Assembly: GCA_002713215.1 (NCBI GenBank)
Contig: PAVO01000017.1
Span: forward strand, 1-64,000
DNA: 64,000 nt
Reading direction: 5' to 3'
DNA from: Crocinitomicaceae bacterium
GTDB lineage: Bacteria > Bacteroidota > Bacteroidia > Flavobacteriales_G > Salibacteraceae
Position 1 is the stretch's first letter, and each line of letters starts with the position of its first letter. Made by a program: the position numbers and the translations under genes. Shown piece by piece: positions 6,472 to 32,449 of the stretch. The notes beneath the pieces were generated by a model, which had not been told where the DNA came from, made no database searches, and saw only the letters and a program-made list of their open reading frames with translations.

Positions 6472-6642
6472 ATTACAGTTTTCATTAAAAAACACTTCAT
6501 GATTCAGGTTGATATTTCTATAACCGAATCATAACTCCTAACTATTTATTAAGATTTTAATTTCCTAAGAATCCAAATTAAAAGCGTGCAGGTCTTTGAG
6601 TTGAGCAAAAGTTTTATTAATGCAGTATATAAAAATATAAGT

Positions 6643-7659
6643 ATGAAAAAATATTTAATCCTATTGATAACATTATCGTTTGTTACTACCACAATTCAGG
6701 CGCAGGTTGATGTTAAGTTAAGAATCAATCATAAATCAGGAAGTCAGGATTTTAAATTTAACGATGTTGTTACAGCAAAAGACGGGTACAACATTAGGTT
6801 TACGCGGCTTCAATATTATATTTCAAAAATTAAATTAATTCATGATAACGGAAAAGAAACTGTTCTGGAGGACGTTTACCTATTGGAAAATGCTGGTATG
6901 AAACTGACTCATGATCTAGGGAATTTCGATATTAAGTATTTGGAGGGCATTAAGTTTAGTATCGGCGTGGACAATGGCCCAAACCCAAACCCCAATGATC
7001 CTTCAAACAACACAACCAATCACGCAGATCCAAATCTATGGCCTAATAGCCACGCTCTCGCATTAAAAAGTCCGAGAATGCACTGGGGATGGTCTGCAGG
7101 GTATCGATTTGTTTGCATGGAAGGGTTTTCAGGACCTTCTACGAATTTTTCGTGTGAAATGCATGCACTAGGAGATGCCAATTATCATGAAGTTGACCTG
7201 GTGGCTGGAGCAGAAATCATTAACAACGAAATGGTAATCGAAATTAATGCCGACTACTTGGAATCATTGTACAATGTTAATATGTCAAGTGGTTTTTACT
7301 TGCATAGTGTAGGGGGCAAGGCAGTAACATTTTTGAAGAACTTTCAACAACGAGTGTTCAGCGCTTCAATGGAACCCATTAAGAATACTACCGGTGTAGG
7401 AAGCATAAAAGGACACGATTATCAAATGAAATTCCAACCAAACCCTTCAGACGGTCCCATTAAGGTGACTTTCAAACCGAAAGGCAATAGCACCTATTTG
7501 TTTCAGGTATTTAACCTTCAGGGTAAGTTGATAGAAAAGTATGAACTGAACGGTTCAAATGCTTTTGAGATTGAAGGACTATCTGTAGGAATTTACCATG
7601 GAGTCTTATTGGAAAATAATGAGGCTATTGATATTCAAAAAATGGTAATCATAAGGTAG
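6643..7659 (+). CDS. mbnP: MbnP family copper protein with T9SS sorting domain
   Basis: A 338-residue exported protein. Start ATG 6643 gives a clean signal peptide ending IQAQ; upstream codons in frame are not signal-like. Residues 21-245 match the MbnP family: the LQYYISKIKL strand near 56-65 and the conserved MHWGWSAGYRFV at 146-157. Residues from about 264 form a T9SS C-terminal domain (FQPNPSDGPIKV ... LSVGIYHG). In methanotrophs MbnP binds copper and is oxidised on tryptophan to kynurenine by the di-heme partner MbnH. Trp133, Trp148 and Trp150 are candidates here. The MbnH-like gene follows after 4 nt. The T9SS tail implies surface display, unlike periplasmic methanotroph MbnP. Confidence 0.85.
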   Translation: MKKYLILLITLSFVTTTIQAQVDVKLRINHKSGSQDFKFNDVVTAKDGYNIRFTRLQYYISKIKLIHDNGKETVLEDVYLLENAGMKLTHDLGNFDIKYLEGIKFSIGVDNGPNPNPNDPSNNTTNHADPNLWPNSHALALKSPRMHWGWSAGYRFVCMEGFSGPSTNFSCEMHALGDANYHEVDLVAGAEIINNEMVIEINADYLESLYNVNMSSGFYLHSVGGKAVTFLKNFQQRVFSASMEPIKNTTGVGSIKGHDYQMKFQPNPSDGPIKVTFKPKGNSTYLFQVFNLQGKLIEKYELNGSNAFEIEGLSVGIYHGVLLENNEAIDIQKMVIIR

Positions 7660-7663
7660 ACAA

Positions 7664-8668
7664 GTGCGTATTTCGTTCTTAATTCTGTTGGGGGTATTAT
7701 CGGTTGTCTTACTGGGGAATAAAGGCCAGGAAGATTTGCTTGACGTACTTAAGGCTGAACCAAAACATTTTCCGCAAATTGATTATCCAACGGATAATGA
7801 TATTACAGTGGAAAGATGGAAGTTGGGGAAAAGACTCTTTTACGATCCGACGCTCTCACGGGATAGTTCAATTAGTTGTGCTTCTTGTCACTTACCTGGT
7901 TTTGCATTTTCAGATACCCTGGCATTTAGTTTAGGAGTGGAAAAGAGGGTAGGAGTGAGAAATGCCCCTTCATTGGCAAATGTTGCCTACCATCCTTATC
8001 TCTCTCGGGATGGCGGAGTTCCAAGTTTGGAAATGCAAATTCTTGTACCGGTTCAGGAACATCTCGAAATGGATTTTAGTACCCTGGAAATAGCCGATCG
8101 TATGATGAAGGATAGTAGCTACTACAATGAAAGTATGGTTGCATATAATCGTTATCCTGATCCCTATGTAATAACGCGTGCATTAGCGTGTTTCGAAAGG
8201 ACACTAATAAGTAGTAACAGTAAGTATGATCGAGTTCAATTGGGTAAAGAGGAATTTACGGTTGAGGAAGAACGAGGCCATCAACTGTTCACAAGTGAAA
8301 GAACTCAATGTTCAACTTGTCACTCGGGATTCAATTTTACTAATTACAAATTTGAGAACAACGGATTGAGAATTCATTATTCGGATTCTGGAAGAATGAG
8401 AGTAACAAAATCGGAAATTGATCGCGATAAGTTTAAGGTGCCTTCACTGAGAAACGTAGAACTCACGGGGCCCTACATGCACGATGGGTCCATTAAAAGA
8501 CTAGAAGAAGTTGTTGGTCATTATTCAGAAGGAATTATAGAACATAAAAATTTAAGCACTGGAATTAAAAATCTTTATTTAACAGAAAACGAAAGAAAGG
8601 ATTTGGTATCGTTTTTAAAAACATTGACAGATCCTGGATTTTGTAAAAACAATTTATACACACAATAA
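7664..8668 (+). CDS. mbnH: MbnH/MauG-type di-heme c peroxidase
   Basis: A 334-residue protein of the bacterial di-heme cytochrome c peroxidase/MauG superfamily. Two haem c sites are present: CASCH (72-76) and CSTCH (216-220). The late GPYMHDGS motif is typical of the second haem domain. The GTG start at 7664, 4 nt after the mbnP stop, begins a signal peptide (MRISFLILLGVLSVVLLG). Adjacent to MbnP it is best read as MbnH, which in methanotrophs uses peroxide to oxidise a tryptophan of MbnP. A general H2O2-scavenging peroxidase is the alternative. It has no T9SS tail, so it is expected in the periplasm. Confidence 0.82.
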   Translation: MRISFLILLGVLSVVLLGNKGQEDLLDVLKAEPKHFPQIDYPTDNDITVERWKLGKRLFYDPTLSRDSSISCASCHLPGFAFSDTLAFSLGVEKRVGVRNAPSLANVAYHPYLSRDGGVPSLEMQILVPVQEHLEMDFSTLEIADRMMKDSSYYNESMVAYNRYPDPYVITRALACFERTLISSNSKYDRVQLGKEEFTVEEERGHQLFTSERTQCSTCHSGFNFTNYKFENNGLRIHYSDSGRMRVTKSEIDRDKFKVPSLRNVELTGPYMHDGSIKRLEEVVGHYSEGIIEHKNLSTGIKNLYLTENERKDLVSFLKTLTDPGFCKNNLYTQ

Positions 8669-8677
8669 AACAAAGTC

Positions 8678-9382
8678 ATGAAATTGAATAGGTTATATAT
8701 TTTAATGTTGTTATTTGTATCAACCCAGATTCAGGCACAAAAATTTAGCCTGTCTACTAACCAGATAACTGATAGTTTATACATCAATGGAACATTTGAA
8801 GACGGTATTGACCTAACCAACAATTCTCCTAACCGCATTCTGGTTAAATGGCGTGTACTCGAAAACACAATTGACACAGCCAATTGGGAGATTTTATACT
8901 GCTCTTATCCTTCTTGTCGGGCAGAAATATTATCAGAGGAGGTATGTGATACAATAGAAAAATTGCAGAAAGTTCGGGTTAGCAACTTAAATATCATTAC
9001 CGAAAAGAATCCCAAAAATTGCCAGTTGAAAATTGAGCTTTTCGATATTCTGGATTCTTCTTACAGGGATACCCTTACCTATGCACTTTATGCAAGCTCT
9101 ACGGATAAAATTACGGGGATAGATAATCCTGCAATTGCAGGTAATGGGATGAAGAATATAGAAATATTCCCGAACCCTGCATCAAATTCAGTTGGTATAA
9201 AAGTTCCAATAGAAATTGAAACAATTAGACTCATTGATTTCCATGGACGTGAAGTTCTTTCACAACCTGTGGGTGAAGAAGAGTTTTCTTTAGATGTTTC
9301 CTCCTTGCAACGAGGTGTTTATTGGGTATTAGGAATGAGTGCAAAAGGAGGAACTTATCATTCAAAATTAATCTTAGAATAG
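8678..9382 (+). CDS. T9SS-sorted protein with Cys motif, unknown function
   Basis: A 234-residue exported protein. The signal peptide ends IQAQ. Residues 20-145 form a beta-rich domain with NWEILYC and YPSC close together plus a later EEVCD. Trp-then-paired-Cys arrangements of this kind recur in uncharacterised Bacteroidota secreted proteins. From about residue 160 there is a T9SS sorting domain (IEIFPNPASNS ... LQRGVYWV). It sits in the middle of the MbnP/multicopper operon, 9 nt after mbnH and 7 nt before the cupredoxin gene, so a role in the same copper process is likely. The cysteines could bind copper or form disulphides; this is inference. Confidence 0.7.
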   Translation: MKLNRLYILMLLFVSTQIQAQKFSLSTNQITDSLYINGTFEDGIDLTNNSPNRILVKWRVLENTIDTANWEILYCSYPSCRAEILSEEVCDTIEKLQKVRVSNLNIITEKNPKNCQLKIELFDILDSSYRDTLTYALYASSTDKITGIDNPAIAGNGMKNIEIFPNPASNSVGIKVPIEIETIRLIDFHGREVLSQPVGEEEFSLDVSSLQRGVYWVLGMSAKGGTYHSKLILE

Positions 9383-9389
9383 AATCTAT

Positions 9390-10259
9390 ATGGTAACCAA
9401 AAACACGTTGATTGTTGTTAGTCTTCTGTTGATTTCTACAACCTTGTTTGGAGCAAGTAGCTCCAAACAGATAAATTTGAATAAGGGTACGTTGGTTACA
9501 GCTGATTCTACCAAGGTTCCTTATTACGCATTCAATAAGGATACAGTATTTTCCCAGGAAAATGAAAGGCTGCTGCTTACGCTGGGCGATACCTTATTGC
9601 TCACCGTTTACAACCGGACATCATCGGCACAACGATTTGTGGTACAGGAATTGGCGATTGATGTTTCAATTTCGGGAGGAGCCAGTCAATTGATCAAATT
9701 GACTCCCGCAAAGGCAGGAGTGTTTGTCTATTCTGCTGTAAATACAGGTAACGAAATAAACCATTACGGGGCTGCGGGAATGTTGGTTGTAACCGCTCCC
9801 AAATACAGTAAGCTGGTTACTTTCTATTGGAACATCAAGGATTTCGAGTATGCTAAGGTGTTGGATCTGGATTCTGGCAAGACAGTAGATTGGAAAACGT
9901 ACTACCCCGATTACTTTCTGGTTAATGGAAAAGGAAAGGATCAGTTGGTTGGTGATCTGGTTTCTAACCCGGTTGGCAAGGTTGGAGATTCACTTTTAAT
10001 TATGATGGCTAATACAGGAAAAGCAGTACACTCCATTCATTTTCATGGATATCATGCGATTGTGTTAGAATCCAATACGAAGAGGGTTCAAAAAGGGAGT
10101 AACAAGGACACTTTTCCTCTAGCTACAGGAGATGGCCTTATGGTATTAATGGTGCCGGATAAACCCGGGATTTATCCCGTTCATGATCATAATCTAATTG
10201 CCGTATCGGGTGGAGGCAAATATCCCAATGGAGTATTCATGATTCTTGATATTAAGTAA
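9390..10259 (+). CDS. two-domain cupredoxin protein, half of a multicopper oxidase site
   Basis: A 289-residue exported protein with two cupredoxin folds (about 30-137 and 175-289). The second carries HSIHFHG (His214, 217, 219) and VHDHN (His265, 267), the spacing of trinuclear-copper ligands in multicopper oxidases. There is no Cys-His-Met type 1 site; the usual HCH is HDH. The first domain has no HxH pairs. It is the exact complement of the next gene, which has a type 1 site and the other two HxH motifs but nothing in its second domain. It has no T9SS tail. The two may form one enzyme, or this protein may bind copper alone. Confidence 0.8.
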   Translation: MVTKNTLIVVSLLLISTTLFGASSSKQINLNKGTLVTADSTKVPYYAFNKDTVFSQENERLLLTLGDTLLLTVYNRTSSAQRFVVQELAIDVSISGGASQLIKLTPAKAGVFVYSAVNTGNEINHYGAAGMLVVTAPKYSKLVTFYWNIKDFEYAKVLDLDSGKTVDWKTYYPDYFLVNGKGKDQLVGDLVSNPVGKVGDSLLIMMANTGKAVHSIHFHGYHAIVLESNTKRVQKGSNKDTFPLATGDGLMVLMVPDKPGIYPVHDHNLIAVSGGGKYPNGVFMILDIK

Positions 10260-10262
10260 GTT

Positions 10263-11462
10263 ATGAAAAAGATTTTATTACTACAGATAACAATGCTTGG
10301 GTTTGTATATTCAATTTATGCTCAAGCAGATACCTCATTTAATATTTGGATGTGGACCACCGGATCACACGTATTACACGATGGTAAAAGATTAGAAAAT
10401 TATGGTTTTACGTTGGGTAGAGGTACTCCTAATATCCCGGGACCCGTGCTTCGGGTAAAGGAAGGGCAAAAAGTAAAGCTGGAAGTACGAAATCAATCGC
10501 AGGGAGCCCCGCACACGATTCATTTGCACGGGTTGGACGTAGACCAGGCCAACGATGGCGTTCCATTAACCAGTTGGGACATTAAGCATAAGGAAACCAA
10601 GGATTACAATTTTGTTGCTACACATCCCGGTACTTACCTTTATCACTGCCATGTGGCATCAGTTTTGCATGTGCAACTTGGAATGTACGGAAGCTTAATT
10701 GTCGAGCCAAAAAGCAAGGAAGCAGCTCCTGGTTATCCCTATCAACGTGATTTTAATTTGTTGCTTAGCGAAGCAGATAAATCCTGGTTCGATAATAAAC
10801 CCAAACACGCAACTGGTGATTCAGTACATGCCCAGTTTTACATTCCTAAGTACGAACCCGATTACTTCTTTGTAAATGGGCAGAGTCAGCACTTAATTGA
10901 TTCCCTTATTATGGGGGTTAGTGAATCTGTGCTCCTTCGCTTATCTAATGTAGGTTATTATGAAAATCAGGTACGGTTTCCGCAAGGGTTGACTGCTAAA
11001 TTGATGAGTTCGGATGGAAGGCCACTTCCCCAAAAAGATGTAATTGATACATTATTAATTTCTCCCGGAGAACGATACGGCGTGTTGCTTTCTCCGATTG
11101 GTAAAACCCGGGGAGTTATTGAAATTGATTATTTGCATTTGTTTACCAGAGAAGTGATTCAAACGGAGAAAGTACCTTATGGATTCGATACTACCTTATC
11201 TATACAGGCGGTTCAAAACTTCAAGGATATAAAGATTTTTCCAAATCCTGCTAAGGACTTTATTCGCATCAATTATCCAGTTTCTGAAAACGTTGTTGTG
11301 ACTTTGGTATCTGCCTCAGGGCAGCAGTATGAAACGAAGGGAACAAAGATGGATGACAGCATGGAATTCGATATTAGGCATTTGCCTGCTGGAAATTATG
11401 TAATGCAGCTTTGGGTTGACAATAAATTACAAGGGACGAGGAACGTTGTAAAGGTAGAATAG
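10263..11462 (+). CDS. multicopper-oxidase-like protein with type 1 site and T9SS tail
   Basis: A 399-residue exported protein; the signal peptide ends YAQ. Cupredoxin domain 1 (about 25-148) contains HTIHLHG (His84, 87, 89) and YHCHVASVLHVQLGM. The latter gives a type 1 copper site (His84, Cys129, His136, Met141) and half of a trinuclear cluster (His87, 89, 128, 130). Domain 2 (about 180-300) has no HxH motifs. From about residue 325 there is a T9SS sorting domain (IKIFPNPAKDF). It begins 3 nt after the previous cupredoxin gene and closes the operon. It is probably a copper or phenol oxidase, or an electron-transfer copper protein needing a partner. Confidence 0.83.
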   Translation: MKKILLLQITMLGFVYSIYAQADTSFNIWMWTTGSHVLHDGKRLENYGFTLGRGTPNIPGPVLRVKEGQKVKLEVRNQSQGAPHTIHLHGLDVDQANDGVPLTSWDIKHKETKDYNFVATHPGTYLYHCHVASVLHVQLGMYGSLIVEPKSKEAAPGYPYQRDFNLLLSEADKSWFDNKPKHATGDSVHAQFYIPKYEPDYFFVNGQSQHLIDSLIMGVSESVLLRLSNVGYYENQVRFPQGLTAKLMSSDGRPLPQKDVIDTLLISPGERYGVLLSPIGKTRGVIEIDYLHLFTREVIQTEKVPYGFDTTLSIQAVQNFKDIKIFPNPAKDFIRINYPVSENVVVTLVSASGQQYETKGTKMDDSMEFDIRHLPAGNYVMQLWVDNKLQGTRNVVKVE

Positions 11463-24851: not shown

Positions 24852-26315
24852 TTGAACCTTAAACAAATCATACTTTTAATTTTACTGTCACTTAGTGGGA
24901 GCTGCGTTATAGCAGCTCCCATTATTGTTTCAGGACTAATAACTGACAATGGAGTTCCTGTACGCAATCAATGGGTACATATAAACGCTCCGGGAGCCGA
25001 TACGAGTTTTATGACCGGACCAGGCGGCAATTATAATGTTGTGGTCAATCCGTCTACTGCTATTGGAACAATGCGTGTTTTCTTTTTATGTAAAAATGAT
25101 ACAACAGATTCAATTGTAGGTTTTGACTCAAGTACTCGTGTTTTAACTGTAAACCTAAACGGATGTGTACCGGTGACCGGATCGGTAACAGTTACAGGCA
25201 ATATTTCCAACAGCCATCTATCTTCTTCACTCATTCGGGTCTATTTCTCCCAGAATAATTTTCGTTCGCTTTTTGATTCTACCCTGGCGGATAGCACAGG
25301 CTTTTTTTCTCATCAGTTCACCAGTTCCGGACCAGGAACGCTGTACACCCGAATTGTAGACTGTGATGGGCAAACGTCCGCCGATTCCACCTGGTTTAAT
25401 TTAAACGATTCCATATCCCAATCCCTGGATTATTGTCCTGTCAAAATGCATGTTGGTATGATTTACAACAGCGGCAGGTTGGTGTCACCAACGGATGCCA
25501 TTTTGCTAAACTACAAATACTTACCAGAAAAGGAGGGTTTTCAGTTTGATGATACGTTAAAGATTCTTTCAAACGGTACATTTCAATTTGTGAATGATAA
25601 GAAAACCGACTACTTATTAAAAGTGATTCCAAAGGATACTGCTATTGGTTTTGCACCAACTTATTACCCCAATGGAATTCAATGGGATAACTCCAATTCT
25701 AAGGCGGTAGGCCCGCATACGCAAGGTGTTTTGAGGATAGATCTTAATCTATTTACTAGAAAGTTGGGAGCGTACTCAATTCGTGGAACGGTAAAAATTG
25801 ATCCTGATTTAATTAAAGATGGATATTCTGCTGTTGGAATTCATTTGTTGGATACCAATAATCAGGTTATTGATTTCACGTTTGCGGATCGGTTTAATGA
25901 TTTTTATTTCAATAACCTTAATGAGGGTCAGTATAAAATTTGGATCGATCAATGTGGAATTCCCACTAACCCTAAGGTTGTAAACCTTTCGAGGACTAAT
26001 CCAACAGTTTCTGATGTTGTATTAACTGCCAATCCTTTAGGTATATCATACGATGAGTTTGTTGGAGTTGAACCAGTTGTAACAGATACTGAACCGGCCC
26101 TATTTCCCAATCCATTTGATGAAATATTGAACCTGAAAATAAAAGAATCAAGCATGATTTCGGTGCATAACATGCAGGGCAAATTAATTCGCGAAGAGGA
26201 ATTTACCGAAGGAGAACTACATAGAATAGAAACTAAAGAATGGCAATCAGGGGTATATGTGATTACAATACAAAACAAAAAGGAGTTGTATAGAAAAAAG
26301 GTGATAAAAAGATAG
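24852..26315 (+). CDS. T9SS surface protein of triad 1
   Basis: A 487-residue secreted protein. It starts with TTG 24852 (TTGAACCTTAAAC), and the paralogue at 28741 begins with the same 13 bases, which supports the unusual start. The signal peptide contains a conserved GSC before the AA-P cleavage region; the residues before the Cys do not make a lipobox. Several Ig/CarboxypepD_reg-like modules follow (IIVSGLITDNGVPV; GSVTVTGNISNS; YSIRGTVKIDPDLIKDGYSAVGIHLLD). A T9SS sorting domain closes it (PALFPNPFDEIL). An ECF sigma gene follows after 14 nt. It may be the surface cargo or the signal source for that sigma/anti-sigma pair. Confidence 0.78.
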   Translation: MNLKQIILLILLSLSGSCVIAAPIIVSGLITDNGVPVRNQWVHINAPGADTSFMTGPGGNYNVVVNPSTAIGTMRVFFLCKNDTTDSIVGFDSSTRVLTVNLNGCVPVTGSVTVTGNISNSHLSSSLIRVYFSQNNFRSLFDSTLADSTGFFSHQFTSSGPGTLYTRIVDCDGQTSADSTWFNLNDSISQSLDYCPVKMHVGMIYNSGRLVSPTDAILLNYKYLPEKEGFQFDDTLKILSNGTFQFVNDKKTDYLLKVIPKDTAIGFAPTYYPNGIQWDNSNSKAVGPHTQGVLRIDLNLFTRKLGAYSIRGTVKIDPDLIKDGYSAVGIHLLDTNNQVIDFTFADRFNDFYFNNLNEGQYKIWIDQCGIPTNPKVVNLSRTNPTVSDVVLTANPLGISYDEFVGVEPVVTDTEPALFPNPFDEILNLKIKESSMISVHNMQGKLIREEEFTEGELHRIETKEWQSGVYVITIQNKKELYRKKVIKR

Positions 26316-26329
26316 GCAGTAAGCCATAC

Positions 26330-26908
26330 ATGGAGGTTGATCGAAAATTAATCGAAGCCTGTATTAAGGGTGATAGAAAGGCTCAACACAAGCTTTATAA
26401 GGATTGCTTTGCTCAACTTCTTAGCATATGTTACCGCTTTGCCAACAATAAGGATGATGCCTGCATCTTGTTAAATGGGGCCTTCTTTAAGGTGCTTAAC
26501 AACTTACATAAGCAGAATGAAGAGATTCCGTTTATGTCGTGGGCCATTCGAATTACTGTAAATCACTGCATAAGTGAATACAGAAAAGAGAATACGAGGA
26601 AAAAACATTTAACCCCTGTTGATCCGGAAGACCTTGAGCATCATGCCGAATTACGTGTTCTGGATGAGGGAGAAAAGGAATATAACCCGGAAGTACTAAA
26701 AAGGGTCCAGGAAGAGGTGCTCAATTTGCCTCCAACTACTCAGGAAGTATTTCAATTATATGTATTTCAGGGGTTTACTCATAATGAGGTAGCTCAACAA
26801 CTGGATATGAAAGAAGGAACTTCTAAATGGCATCTTAATAATGCCAGGAAGATTTTAAAATCGGTGTTGAGTAGTTCATTAAAATTAATGTCAAGCATAG
26901 TGTTATGA
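26330..26908 (+). CDS. ECF-type RNA polymerase sigma factor, triad 1
   Basis: A sigma-70-family extracytoplasmic-function factor of 192 residues with regions 2 and 4 only. Region 2 spans about 10-80 (ACIKGDRKAQHKLY, FMSWAIRITVNHCISEYRK). Region 4 spans about 120-178 (LPPTTQEVFQLYVFQGFTHNEVAQQL, EGTSKWHLNNARKIL). Its ATGA overlap with the next gene, a membrane-spanning putative anti-sigma, fits co-synthesis and control by sequestration. A close paralogue lies at 30216-30794. The target promoters are unknown; autoregulation of the triad is plausible. Confidence 0.88.
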   Translation: MEVDRKLIEACIKGDRKAQHKLYKDCFAQLLSICYRFANNKDDACILLNGAFFKVLNNLHKQNEEIPFMSWAIRITVNHCISEYRKENTRKKHLTPVDPEDLEHHAELRVLDEGEKEYNPEVLKRVQEEVLNLPPTTQEVFQLYVFQGFTHNEVAQQLDMKEGTSKWHLNNARKILKSVLSSSLKLMSSIVL

Positions 26909-28551
26909 TAGACGAAGAAATTGATAAAATTACTAGGGCTGCGTTTCCAGGCGGAGATACTTCTTATGAAGAGAAGTATTGGAAGGACATGGAAAGTGTG
27001 CTGGGTAACTCAGGAAGAAAAAGAGGTTTTATTTTTTGGTGGGGAGCAGGTGCGGTTGCATTGCTGATTTCTGCTGTGGCGGTTATCAATCTGTCAAATT
27101 CACCAAATGAGATATCCGATGATCTTAAGACTAACGCAGCTTTAACTCAGGTCGAACCAAATGATAAAGAGCAAGTAGAAAAGCAAGAAACTACCCCTGA
27201 GCAAAGTGAAAAGATTGAAACGAACGAAACGAATGAAAAATTAAAATCGGTTGAGAAGAACACTGCAGATTACGATAGTAAAAAGGAGAGTATTCAAACT
27301 CATAATGGCCAACAGACAGGTATCACAGAATCTGCTACCATTCAACCAGTACCCACTTCTGGAAAGAAAAAATTGAAAGAATCAAATCAACAATTAGGTA
27401 AAGGTACAGGTGCTTCAATGAAAACCCTGGTTGCAGTTTCGTCGACTCTTGACCAATCTAAGGAAACCTTACCTTCTACTGTCAAAAATGAAAATAAGAC
27501 AGAACAGAATGCCTCACCGGAAGTCAAAACAGTTGAGCTAGCTGAAACGGTCCAAAAAGGGGAAGAAACTTCAGAAGTTTCGGAACCCGAAGTAACCGTC
27601 TATGATAAAAATGATCTGGAAGTGGTAGCTGAAGATAATTCGGAAGAAAAAGATCAAACTATGGCAACAGAAGAACCTGAGGAGGATTCGGACCTTGCGG
27701 AATCAGTTGATGCCACCGCTGAAAAAACTGAATTTGGTGAAAAAGTTAAATCGGGTAATAAGTTTAAGTGGTTCATACAGCCTTCACTGTCCATTTCTAC
27801 TTCTCAAAAGGGTGAAGTGAGCCTAGTAGAAACCAAATCTTCAAGCTCTCATATAAGTCCAAGTGCTATTCGCGAGTGGAATGGTGGAATTGAAGCAGGT
27901 GTACGTTATGGCTCTTTTTACTTGCTAAGCGGACTCCGTTTTCAGGAGTTTAATCAATCGTTTTCCATTAGAACGGTTACGACAGACATAAAGGATGAAT
28001 ATCAATACAATCAGCGTGATAAGATTGAAAGTATTGATCGTACGCTGATTCGTAACATTATTGTTAAGGTTCCCGATGGGAATGATTTCATTTTTAAAGT
28101 AGCCGGAAGCGAATATTCTACAGATACTAACTGGACAACAGTAACTGATACCGTGGTTAATAGTAAGGAGATAGTAAGCGAAGAGGAATTGAGCATTAAT
28201 TACAAATTGCAGTACTTAAGCGTGCCGTTAAGGGTAGGGTTTGAACATGTACTTGGAGAAAAATGGTTGGTTGAAACTTCTATCGGCGCCAACTTTGGTT
28301 TCCTGATCAGTCAGTCGGGAAGCGTATTTAACTCAAATACGAATGACGTCGTTGTGGTCGGGCAATCAGCTTCAATTGCTAAATCTACCATTAGCAGTTC
28401 ATTCGGAGTAGGAGTCGGGTACTTATTAACCCCTGACCTTTCGCTACGACTGAATCCTACTTATCGATACATGATTAAAGGGCCTAATAAGGACCTCATT
28501 AACCAGTCTAATTTCTTTGGGGTGGGTATGCAAATTCGATATGTGTTTTAG
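26905..28551 (+). CDS. dual-membrane-spanning anti-sigma/beta-barrel protein, triad 1
   Basis: A 548-residue protein with an unusual layout. A short cytoplasmic N-terminus (MIDEEIDKITRAAF ... YWKDMESVL, 1-40) could bind the sigma factor. One inner-membrane helix follows at 42-63. Then comes a long acidic low-complexity linker (64-285, rich in Glu, Lys, Thr, Ser). The C-terminal PorT-like outer-membrane beta-barrel runs from about 286 to 548, ending in an aromatic residue (QIRYVF). This matches the dual membrane-spanning anti-sigma (Dma) class described in Bacteroides, in which one chain links barrel and sigma factor. It overlaps the sigma gene by 4 nt. No zinc-finger anti-sigma motif is present. 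Confidence 0.82.
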   Translation: MIDEEIDKITRAAFPGGDTSYEEKYWKDMESVLGNSGRKRGFIFWWGAGAVALLISAVAVINLSNSPNEISDDLKTNAALTQVEPNDKEQVEKQETTPEQSEKIETNETNEKLKSVEKNTADYDSKKESIQTHNGQQTGITESATIQPVPTSGKKKLKESNQQLGKGTGASMKTLVAVSSTLDQSKETLPSTVKNENKTEQNASPEVKTVELAETVQKGEETSEVSEPEVTVYDKNDLEVVAEDNSEEKDQTMATEEPEEDSDLAESVDATAEKTEFGEKVKSGNKFKWFIQPSLSISTSQKGEVSLVETKSSSSHISPSAIREWNGGIEAGVRYGSFYLLSGLRFQEFNQSFSIRTVTTDIKDEYQYNQRDKIESIDRTLIRNIIVKVPDGNDFIFKVAGSEYSTDTNWTTVTDTVVNSKEIVSEEELSINYKLQYLSVPLRVGFEHVLGEKWLVETSIGANFGFLISQSGSVFNSNTNDVVVVGQSASIAKSTISSSFGVGVGYLLTPDLSLRLNPTYRYMIKGPNKDLINQSNFFGVGMQIRYVF

Positions 28552-28740: not shown

Positions 28741-30201
28741 TTGAACCTTAAACTTTTAATACTATCATTTTTACTGTTTATAAAAGGAAGCTGCCTAATG
28801 GCGGCTTCCTTTAATGTTTTTGGCCAGGTTACCAACAATGGCCTTCCTGCTCCTAACCAGGTGGTTTATGTTCAGGCCACTGGTGCAGATACCAATTTTA
28901 GAACCGATACACTCGGAAATTATTTCGCTTCCATAAAATCAACCATTCAAAATGGAATCGTAAGAATTTTCTTTGTCGATTGTAAGGGGGATACTGTAGA
29001 AGCTAACAGGACCTTTACTAATCTAACCCGTTCCATATATTCAAGGTTACAAGGTTGTCCGCCTGCCGGAAAAGTACTGGTATCAGGTACTGTTAAAACC
29101 TATATGCAAGCTTCTCGCTTTATCAGTGTTTATTTTTCTAAGGATAATTTTCGCACCTATTTCGATTCTACAAAAACCGGCCTTCTTGGAAAATTCTTTG
29201 AACAATACTATACCAAAGGAGCAGGTAAATTGTATGTAAGAATCAGAGATTGTGAGGATAATTGGATTTTTGATTCACTGCCCTATAATGCTTCGGATAC
29301 CTTAAGTTTTACGCTCAACTTTTGTAAAAACACAGATAAGGTTTATCATGGAACGATAAACCTAAATTCTAAGGCAATAAAACCTGATGAAGCATTTATG
29401 TTGCGTTACAAATTCAATCCGGTTAGGAAAAATTTTGAATTTGTAGATTCTATTTCCGTTAATAAGCACGGTTCCTTCCACTTTCCAAAAGACAGTGTTA
29501 ATGAGTATTTATTAAAGGTGCTTCCAACGGATGCATCTCGGTTTTCCGCTACTTACTACCCAAACGGGATTAAATGGAATCATAGCAATGCGCGTTCAAT
29601 AGGAATTCATTTGAATAACCCGCTAAGGGTTTATTTAAAAGATTATCCATCACCATCAGGAACTTATAGAATAAGTGGTGTAGTGGAAGTCGATAATGGG
29701 TTTAAACGAGCAGGTTACGGAGCGGTGGGAATTCATTTGCTGGATAATTCGGATAAGGTTATTGGTTTTACTTATGCTAACAGAGCCGGTAGTTTTTCGT
29801 TTGATAATTTGGATGCCGGAAGCTATCGGGTATGGATTGATCAATGTGGTCTTCCCACTGAAAACAAGATTATTTCGCTGAATGCAAATAACCCGGTTGA
29901 AGATAATCTGGTTATAACGGCAAACAATAACGGGGTTTACTTCGATGAATTCCTAGGCTTAAATGAAGCATACTCCGAATCTGAAACCCAGGTTTACCCC
30001 AATCCTTTTGCCGATGTTATCAATTTGGTTTCGAAGGATTATGGGACGGTTACCGTTCAGGATATGATGGGTAGAATTGTATATTCAAATAATTATGTAA
30101 AAAATGAAGAAATCCGAACGGATAATTGGGAGGAAGGAGTTTACCTGATCACCGTTCAAAATAAAAAGGGATTGTATAGAAGGAAGCTTGTAAAAAAATA
30201 A
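28741..30201 (+). CDS. T9SS surface protein of triad 2
   Basis: A 486-residue paralogue of the protein at 24852-26315. It has the same TTG start sequence, GSC-containing signal peptide, CarboxypepD_reg-like modules (FNVFGQVTNNGLPAPNQVV; YRISGVVEVDNGFKRAGYGAVG) and T9SS sorting domain (TQVYPNPFADVI ... EEGVYLITVQNKKGLYRRK). Shared segments include RVYFSQNNFRS / SVYFSKDNFRT and the WIDQCG motif. It precedes the second ECF sigma gene by 14 nt, the same spacing as in triad 1. Enough divergence has built up that the two may recognise different partners. Confidence 0.78.
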   Translation: MNLKLLILSFLLFIKGSCLMAASFNVFGQVTNNGLPAPNQVVYVQATGADTNFRTDTLGNYFASIKSTIQNGIVRIFFVDCKGDTVEANRTFTNLTRSIYSRLQGCPPAGKVLVSGTVKTYMQASRFISVYFSKDNFRTYFDSTKTGLLGKFFEQYYTKGAGKLYVRIRDCEDNWIFDSLPYNASDTLSFTLNFCKNTDKVYHGTINLNSKAIKPDEAFMLRYKFNPVRKNFEFVDSISVNKHGSFHFPKDSVNEYLLKVLPTDASRFSATYYPNGIKWNHSNARSIGIHLNNPLRVYLKDYPSPSGTYRISGVVEVDNGFKRAGYGAVGIHLLDNSDKVIGFTYANRAGSFSFDNLDAGSYRVWIDQCGLPTENKIISLNANNPVEDNLVITANNNGVYFDEFLGLNEAYSESETQVYPNPFADVINLVSKDYGTVTVQDMMGRIVYSNNYVKNEEIRTDNWEEGVYLITVQNKKGLYRRKLVKK

Positions 30202-30215
30202 AGTACTGCCGTGAT

Positions 30216-30794
30216 ATGAAGGTGGATCGGAAGCTAATTGGAGCCTGTATTAAAGGCGATCGAAGGGCTCAGCGCGAGCTCTATGGGCTATGCCTTGATC
30301 AATTGTTAGGTGTTTGCTTCCGGTTTGCGAACAACGAAGACGATGCTTCTATCCTTCTGAACGAGGCATTTTTCAAGATTTTAGAGAATCTGGAAAATCA
30401 AAATAAAGAGGTTCCCTTTATGGCCTGGGCAACCCGAATAACGGTAAATCACTGCATAAGTGAATATCGGAAAGACAGAACCAGAAAGCGGGTAATTACC
30501 GCAATGGAACCGGAAGACCTGGACCAGTCTTCTCAATTGAGAATATTGGATGATGAGAAATTTGAATATGATCCAAGACTTTTAAAGAAGGTACGAAAGG
30601 AAATTTTAAACCTACCACCCATGACCCAGGAGGTTTTCCAGTTGTATGTTTTTCAAAATTGTTCTCATTACGAGGTGGCGGAGTTGTTGGGAATTAAAGA
30701 GGGAACATCAAAATGGCATTTGTTTAATGCGCGCAGTATATTGAGAGAAGCATTAATTGATGACATGAAAGAAGTAACAAGTATAGCCTTATGA
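30216..30794 (+). CDS. ECF-type RNA polymerase sigma factor, triad 2
   Basis: A 192-residue ECF sigma factor, the same length as its paralogue at 26330 and clearly homologous throughout (DRKLIGACIKGDRRAQREL; ITVNHCISEYRKDRTRKR; LPPMTQEVFQLYVFQNCSHYEVAELL). The region 4 recognition segment differs in places, so promoter specificity may have shifted. It overlaps the following anti-sigma gene by 4 nt. It would be released when the associated envelope-spanning protein senses its signal; this follows from the Dma model, not from the sequence directly. Confidence 0.87.
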   Translation: MKVDRKLIGACIKGDRRAQRELYGLCLDQLLGVCFRFANNEDDASILLNEAFFKILENLENQNKEVPFMAWATRITVNHCISEYRKDRTRKRVITAMEPEDLDQSSQLRILDDEKFEYDPRLLKKVRKEILNLPPMTQEVFQLYVFQNCSHYEVAELLGIKEGTSKWHLFNARSILREALIDDMKEVTSIAL

Positions 30795-32449
30795 CAGACG
30801 AGGAAATCGATAAGTTGTCAAGAGCGTCATTTCGCAACTCCCGCGCTGCTAATGAAGCAAAGCTTTGGAGTGACATGGAAAAGATTCTCGACGAAAGGGG
30901 AAGCAAGGGGGGCGGTTTCTATTGGCCGGCACTTGGAGCTGTGGTTCTGGTTGTTGCGACTGCATTGGGGTGGTTTGTTATTAGCGACACATCAAAAAGC
31001 ATTATAACACCAACAGAAGATCAAATTGTAGAAAATCAAAAGACTATCAATCCTGAGTCCAATGCCAACGATATCGATTCGAAAAGCGATCAGCCTATAC
31101 GAACTGAGGAATTACAGGGCAATGATGCTAAACCTTTGACCAAGTCAATAAGTAAAACTGCGATTAAACAAGAAAAGCCAATTGAAGCAACGAGTAAGAC
31201 TAACGTAGAAAAGGCTAGCATCCTAAATGAAGAAAGTACTCCTCAAAACGGGGAAGCTTTGTTAGTTGCATCTGTTACTCAACCAGTGGACACTAAACCT
31301 GAAGAGGAAAACAACCTAAGTCTGATTACTGAAATGAGTGCAGGACAAACCATAAACAAGGTTTCCAAAGTCAATGAGGCGAATGAAAATAGTGTTGGGC
31401 TGGAAACATCGCAATCAATAGAAGAAGAAACTCCTGAATCGGTAGAAATCACAAATTCGGAGCAGGGAGCGAATCAAGAAGATAATTCTATAGCATTAGT
31501 GGACGTTTCGGCCATTGAAAACCCTCAGGAGAATTCAGAACAGAAAGTTGATGTACAGGAAGATTCACAGGAAACGATGGCGATTGCAGAAGGAGAAATC
31601 AAAGCAGATGAACCAATCAATACAGAAACCGAATTCGGGGAAGAGCTAAACTCAAACTCTAGGATTCGATTTTTTGTTCAACCCCGATTTAGTTATTTTA
31701 ATTCGGAGAAGGAAAAGGAGTATTATATAGAAACCACATCGTCTAATTCTCATATTAACACTTCAAGAATGAAGGACTGGAGTGCTGGAATTGATGCTGG
31801 GGTTCAGTTTAATAAATTCTATATCAAAACCGGATTACACTATCAGGAACTAAACCAGTCGTTCTCTATACGTACCCAAACCACAGAAATAATAGATAAT
31901 TACGAATATGAGGATCGACTCATTGGAACTGAAATAGTACAGTCAGGTACAAGGTACGAAGTGTTTAAAGTTCCGGTAGGTAGTGGGTTTTCTTACCGGG
32001 GTCAATCCATTGCGATTTACGACACCAACGACGTTTTTGTCACTGATACCATTATCAATAAAACGGAATTAGTCGTTGAAACCCAATCTACGCTTAGCTA
32101 TACATTGAAATATTTTCAAGTGCCTTTGATGGTTGGTTATGAACATGTATTAGGGGCAAGATGGTTGATCGATGTATCCGGAGGTATAAATCTTGGTATT
32201 CTTGCTGGTCAGTCGGGAAGTACGTTTAACAACAATTCTGAAGAGGTGGTTTCATTACTGGGATCTTCTCACCCCTCTAAGACCACAGTTTCCTATTTAG
32301 TTAATGTTGGAGTAGGGTATATGTTAGGCCCTGATATGTCAATTAATTTAACCCCAAGCTACAAATACCTGGGGAATGGGCCATTTAATTACAGTGAAAG
32401 TCAACGAAGCTTTTATGGGGTTGATCTTGGTCTTCGATATAAGTTTTAA
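30791..32449 (+). CDS. dual-membrane-spanning anti-sigma/beta-barrel protein, triad 2
   Basis: A 552-residue paralogue of the protein at 26905. The cytoplasmic N-terminus (MTDEEIDKLSRASF ... LWSDMEKIL) is similar. One membrane helix lies at about 44-64, followed by a long Glu/Ser/Asn/Gln-rich linker (about 65-290). A C-terminal outer-membrane barrel runs from about 291 to 552 and ends LGLRYKF. The linker sequences hardly align although both are acidic and about 220 residues long, while the two ends are conserved. That is what a length-constrained tether across the periplasm would show. Sigma partner: the gene it overlaps at 30791-30794. Confidence 0.82.
   Translation: MTDEEIDKLSRASFRNSRAANEAKLWSDMEKILDERGSKGGGFYWPALGAVVLVVATALGWFVISDTSKSIITPTEDQIVENQKTINPESNANDIDSKSDQPIRTEELQGNDAKPLTKSISKTAIKQEKPIEATSKTNVEKASILNEESTPQNGEALLVASVTQPVDTKPEEENNLSLITEMSAGQTINKVSKVNEANENSVGLETSQSIEEETPESVEITNSEQGANQEDNSIALVDVSAIENPQENSEQKVDVQEDSQETMAIAEGEIKADEPINTETEFGEELNSNSRIRFFVQPRFSYFNSEKEKEYYIETTSSNSHINTSRMKDWSAGIDAGVQFNKFYIKTGLHYQELNQSFSIRTQTTEIIDNYEYEDRLIGTEIVQSGTRYEVFKVPVGSGFSYRGQSIAIYDTNDVFVTDTIINKTELVVETQSTLSYTLKYFQVPLMVGYEHVLGARWLIDVSGGINLGILAGQSGSTFNNNSEEVVSLLGSSHPSKTTVSYLVNVGVGYMLGPDMSINLTPSYKYLGNGPFNYSESQRSFYGVDLGLRYKF

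Follow-up and report, generated by a model that had tools for sequence, protein, structure and literature searches.

Two-domain multicopper oxidases are trimers in which domain 1 of a protomer binds the trinuclear copper cluster together with domain 2 of its neighbor, and in the type C enzymes the type 1 copper lies in the N-terminal domain (PMC13151041, PMC3192119). We analyzed two adjacent forward-strand genes, here called A and B, in a 64,000-nt stretch of a Crocinitomicaceae bacterium genome (contig PAVO01000017.1, positions 1 to 64,000; hereafter the window). Gene A (9390–10259) encodes a protein of 289 aa and gene B (10263–11462) one of 399 aa, each with two cupredoxin domains. From the sequences we judge, with a probability of roughly 85%, that A and B, each needing the other, make up a single secreted multicopper oxidase with a shared cluster.

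Copper motifs and ancestry of A and B

A begins with a signal-like stretch and has neither a type 1 copper site nor a T9SS tail. Its domain 1 (approximately residues 27–140, 9468–9809) has lost its ligands, as seen from profile–profile alignment and residue counts at the positions opposite the ligands of B. The whole chain contains seven His and no Cys, and five of these His (H214, H217, H219, H265, and H267) lie in the C-terminal half. Domain 2 carries the motif HSIHFHG (residues 214–220, 10029–10049), with H217 and H219 as predicted cluster ligands, and the motif HDH (residues 265–267, 10182–10190), with H265 and H267 as predicted cluster ligands and Asp or Asn where the type 1 Cys would be. 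B likewise begins with a signal-like sequence, from a start of its own, and its domain 1 carries HTIHLHG (residues 84–90, 10512–10532) and HCH...H....M (residues 128–141, 10644–10685). In B, H87, H89, H128, and H130 are predicted cluster ligands, and H84, C129, H136, and M141 would form a type 1 site in the N-terminal domain. Domain 2 of B (approximately residues 160–300, 10740–11162) is collinear with domain 2 of A and has no HxH motif; a T9SS tail follows it.

The two proteins are thus complementary, with HxH pairs only in domain 2 of A and only in domain 1 of B, where they stand beside the full type 1 site. Neither chain contains the four HxH regions of a single type C chain (two are in A and two in B) or the eight His of a trinuclear cluster; A and B together have exactly eight. 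The original prediction had proposed that only the pair supplies four HxH motifs, domain 2 of A against domain 1 of B, and we found this complementarity in all 29 pairs that we collected. Its gene coordinates, 3-nt gap, and motif residues were likewise exact at the residue level. Pfam placed Cu-oxidase_2 on A (residues 199–270) and Cu-oxidase_3 and Cu-oxidase, besides the T9SS tail, on B. Neither protein reached the cut-off of any NCBIfam model for multicopper oxidases or nitrite reductases; the copper nitrite reductase model TIGR02376 (cut-off 296 bits) gave 26 bits for A and 64 bits for B, which instead have the eight conserved cluster His.

Among solved structures, B matched 3G5W (E 3.8e-24, B residues 56–278) and 2ZWN (E 2.2e-21), and A alone matched the second domain of both. 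A profile of 19 A relatives matched 2ZWN with E 2e-18 (chain residues 79–273, reaching from late domain 1 across domain 2) and 3G5W with E 7.8e-18. Both proteins therefore combine two cupredoxin domains with a match to the type C structures. The A and B profiles aligned collinearly over both domains (probability 99.6%, E 4.6e-24, 224 columns), placing H84/H87/H89 of B opposite Q81/V84/Q86 of A and H128/C129/H130 of B opposite S115/A116/V117 of A. The A columns opposite B ligands are variable, with 13 different residues at position 84 among 29 sequences; position 81 is His in 16 of the 29, possibly a relic of the lost site. The domain 2 motif of A falls on B residues 233–240, where no His is conserved. 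The His of A are still spaced HxxHxH and HxH, as in domain 2 of an oxidase. In addition, a single-chain type C protein (L109) is closest to B through domain 1 and to A through domain 2. We conclude from these alignments that A and B are whole, collinear two-domain paralogues of type C ancestry that have lost opposite sites. Collinearity together with complementary ligand loss means that they are not two pieces of one broken gene, which refines the original description of an oxidase split across two genes: its complementary halves stand, but no single gene was cut in two.

Conservation and pairing of the genes

Our sample comprised 29 A/B pairs from 28 genomes of one class, one genome having two pairs (L080 and L082). 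H214, H217, H219, H222, H265, and H267 of A were invariant in all 29 sequences, as were H84, H87, H89, H128, C129, H130, H136, and M141 of B, although median pairwise identity was 33% for A and 35% for B and only 14 of 289 positions in A and 34 of 398 in B were fully invariant. The chance that all ligands would fall among invariant positions is about 4e-6 for the four cluster His of A and about 1e-9 for the eight ligands of B, figures that come from a simple draw ignoring relatedness and serve as a rough guide only. One B (L059) has the motif variant HTVHLHG. With an invariant axial Met (M141), the type 1 site would be expected to have an ordinary potential and not a very high one. The distance matrices of A and B were correlated (r 0.87, with 0 of 2000 permutations as high), a value to which shared ancestry contributes.

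The two genes also occur together. Of 42 genomes in the order to which the window belongs, the same 20 contained A (at E ≤ 1e-10) and B (at E ≤ 1e-25), adjacent every time. In a class sample of 395 genomes, A was found in 16 and B (E < 1e-100) in the same 16, with only part of the first-look candidates scored in the class searches, so that weak cases could escape. A phylum-wide draw, in which the genomes listed were of the same class, added no further pairs, and a search of viral contigs gave no more relatives. At every A locus, B is the next gene on the same strand. The start of B overlaps the stop of A by 1, 4, 8, or 10 nt at 21 of 29 loci; gaps of 3–12 nt occur at five, larger ones at L100 and L110 (starts estimated), and L087 is a frameshift case. 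Such overlaps may couple synthesis of A and B. A promoter and terminator scan gave no signal clear enough to delimit the operon.

According to the original prediction, the pairing would fail if either gene commonly occurred alone. A was never found without B, and no ligand-intact B without A was found in the 42-genome order search or the 395-genome class sample. The class search returned three further B-like cases (E 1e-36 to 1e-56): a C-terminal remnant of B (L077), a single-chain type C oxidase of the ordinary kind, its four HxH motifs complete (L078/L109; 2ZWN E 2.5e-56), and a B homologue whose copper ligands are gone (L076/L107). A genus search added six more ligand-less homologues of the last kind. 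In these A-less proteins, VYKYSPNM or a similar string stands where the ligands of B read HHHHCHHM, a loss of six or seven out of eight, and the T9SS tail is gone. Thus, where A is missing, the copper sites of B are missing too, as seen in seven intact homologues from seven genomes of one genus, which count as one event. Together, the constant presence of B beside A and the loss of ligands in A-less, otherwise intact B homologues favor the pairing.

Located 3' of the A-less homologues are a small protein with EWDCSMCQHGAC and a tyrosinase gene (PF00264). The ligand-less, tail-less B homologue, the small WDCSMCQHGAC protein, and the tyrosinase gene form a conserved trio (L107:5278–8172 and L111–L117; 7 of 121 genomes of the genus), possibly a helper set for the tyrosinase. 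The small protein of the trio is a weak relative of the window ORF at 8678–9382. Another locus (L108:6591–11196) combines a C-terminal remnant of B with a nearby multicopper oxidase, which is a single chain with a T9SS tail and perhaps a replacement.

In the window, A and B close a tight forward-strand run with gaps of 3–9 nt. It opens with an MbnP-family protein (copper-binding family; 6586–7659, PF20243) with a T9SS tail, followed by an MbnH/MauG-type di-haem enzyme (7664–8668) and a small secreted protein (8678–9382) with the motif WEILYCSYPSC, a T9SS tail, and no other Pfam family. MbnP and MbnH genes lie beside A/B at only 3 of the 28 other loci (L082, L089, and L102), which makes them associates rather than constant parts; at L089, A/B is flanked on each side by an MbnP/MbnH-type pair. 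At 13 of the 28 other loci, a relative of the small protein that has a W....C....C type motif occurs near A, 12 of these upstream on the same strand, and the small protein is likely an accessory. A copper- or metal-related role for A/B is our leading guess from the MbnP/MbnH neighbors, although this context is a hint on function and no proof of substrate. The pair is not the only oxidase of the genome: our search found a single further multicopper oxidase, a three-domain protein that is complete in one chain and has its own T9SS tail. Elsewhere in the window, two successive three-gene sets (24852–28551 and 28741–32449), encoding proteins of very similar lengths (487/192/548 and 486/192/552 aa), resemble a duplicated cassette, judged by these lengths only.

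The proposed shared cluster and its alternatives

We propose that a type C two-domain oxidase gene underwent tandem duplication followed by reciprocal loss, A retaining the domain 2 half of the cluster site and B retaining the type 1 site and the domain 1 half. The trinuclear cluster would then form at the interface of A domain 2 and B domain 1, the equivalent of which lies between identical subunits in ordinary two-domain oxidases. If the arrangement of the homotrimers carries over, four HxH motifs meet only at this interface, whereas A–A, B–B, and A domain 1–B domain 2 contacts lack them; the last of these would be copper-free and structural. By analogy with known oxidases, B would take up substrate electrons at its type 1 copper and hand them over the H128–C129–H130 bridge to the cluster, where O2 would be reduced to water. 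A and B cannot alternate around a ring of three two-domain subunits, and such a trimer would have room for at most one full cluster; conceivable stoichiometries are a 1:1 heterodimer, a one-cluster A2B or AB2, and some larger assembly. We additionally ran AlphaFold2 on a read-through A–B chain (690 aa) and on A domain 2 with B domain 1 (282 aa), which gave a mean pLDDT of 47 and pTM of 0.36–0.37 from alignments of seven rows, values too low for the models to speak for or against the interface.

Secretion is the main difficulty for an enzyme shared between A and B. As the original prediction cautioned, only B has a T9SS tail, a type A sorting domain at residues 325–396 (11235–11450) that was recognized by PF18962 and by TIGR04183 (35.4 bits against a cut-off of 23), neither of which matched A. 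Across the sample, every one of the 29 B proteins has a PNP-type core of the tail and none of the A proteins does; an apparent tail on A of L087 is a frameshift artefact. A must therefore travel with B or remain periplasmic, and if A cannot follow B the exported enzyme would be incomplete. The tail of B may direct the enzyme to the cell surface, A presumably travelling with it as a folded partner, and we give even odds to such co-export of A. The full scenario, in which duplication and complementary loss of half-sites produced a cluster from two gene products and untagged A is carried folded through the T9SS by B, seems to us to be evenly balanced between true and false. We did not find a demonstration of T9SS co-export of an untagged partner in the literature; if A does leave the cell with B, the pair would provide a defined test case.

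The different fates implied by a tail on B only could also mean that the proteins act separately, B as a surface blue copper (type 1) electron-transfer protein and A as a periplasmic copper-binder, encoded in a common operon with no shared cluster. On this view, the MbnP/MbnH neighbors, present here and at a few other loci, would reflect copper biology in general. We consider this unlikely, since a lone type 1 site needs only H84, C129, H136, and M141, but H87, H89, H128, and H130 of B are equally invariant, A retains exactly the four His that match them, and the order and class searches found no ligand-intact B living without A.

It is still less probable that A is a maturation factor, lending its His in the periplasm to load copper into B or another oxidase and staying outside the exported enzyme. 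The lack of a T9SS tail on A at all 29 loci fits this idea, and the three-domain oxidase with its own tail could be a client, but B would then lack the second half of the cluster at every locus and could have no oxidase function after A departs, and A has kept the motif spacing of an oxidase domain 2.

The shared frame with a single TAA between A and B in the window, and one continuous 692-aa frame in a relative, might suggest one gene in decay or wrongly assembled, through a frameshift or a sequencing error. This reading can be dismissed, because B starts independently and with a signal-like sequence, the frames of A and B differ at nearly all other loci, the 692-aa frame stems from a run of eight G, and strong conservation over 29 pairs, including other intact two-gene loci, already contradicts a single gene.

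A search for single-chain A–B fusions in other genomes, suggested with the original prediction, gave none among the collected relatives, and the two long frames that it turned up have other explanations. The 692-aa frame (L010/L087) arises by frame shifts at the eight-G run, GCAGGGGGGGGTATATCC, and in L010 the alternative frame past this run restores a normal A ending (YPNGM...LIR) and a stop. At this run, near the end of A (L010:2300–2330), a sequencing error and a phase-variable switch are indistinguishable here. A 1093-aa frame (L062/L103) joins A, as its C-terminal part, to an unrelated upstream secreted protein, and B is a separate following gene. Both partners are enlarged at this locus (L103:3745–9078), B having an extra C-terminal domain (684 aa).

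Comparison with described oxidases

In sequence, B and the A profile come closest to the type C two-domain oxidases, including the metagenomic laccase 2ZWN and 3G5W of Nitrosomonas europaea, which share with A/B two cupredoxin domains, a type 1 site with an HCH bridge in domain 1 as in B, and HxxHxHG and HDH in domain 2 as in A. They also place the cluster between subunits, but each of their chains has all ligands and forms a homotrimer (PMC13151041, PMC3192119), whereas A and B are paralogues with half of the ligands each. Our searches of open-access literature for split, heterodimeric, or heteromeric multicopper oxidases found only fungal heterodimeric laccases and homotrimeric two-domain enzymes, with no precedent for A/B. 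Thus, the heteromeric two-gene form of the two-domain oxidase appears to be new, although the family itself is already known. To our knowledge, described multicopper oxidases are self-sufficient chains, monomeric or homotrimeric, and A/B, if our reading is true, would be the first with a trinuclear cluster built from two different gene products. An obligate heteromer arising by reciprocal loss would moreover be a natural record of a long-proposed step from homotrimers with three redundant clusters to enzymes with one.

Three-domain oxidases (laccase, CueO, CopA, and ascorbate oxidase) have an eight-His cluster between two cupredoxin domains, with one type 1 site and one cluster per enzyme. They differ from A/B in being single chains and in having the type 1 site in the last domain, which in the A/B pair is in the first. 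Ceruloplasmin and other six-domain oxidases have lost redundant sites and kept one cluster, and the A profile matches the last domain of ceruloplasmin; there six domains lie in one chain, whereas in A/B the loss of redundant sites is spread over two separate genes. Finally, two different polypeptides have been reported in one laccase in the heterodimeric fungal enzymes of the POXA3 type. As far as we know, their small subunit has no cupredoxin domain and no copper ligands, and their large subunit is a complete laccase, so that one chain is complete there and, in A/B, neither is.
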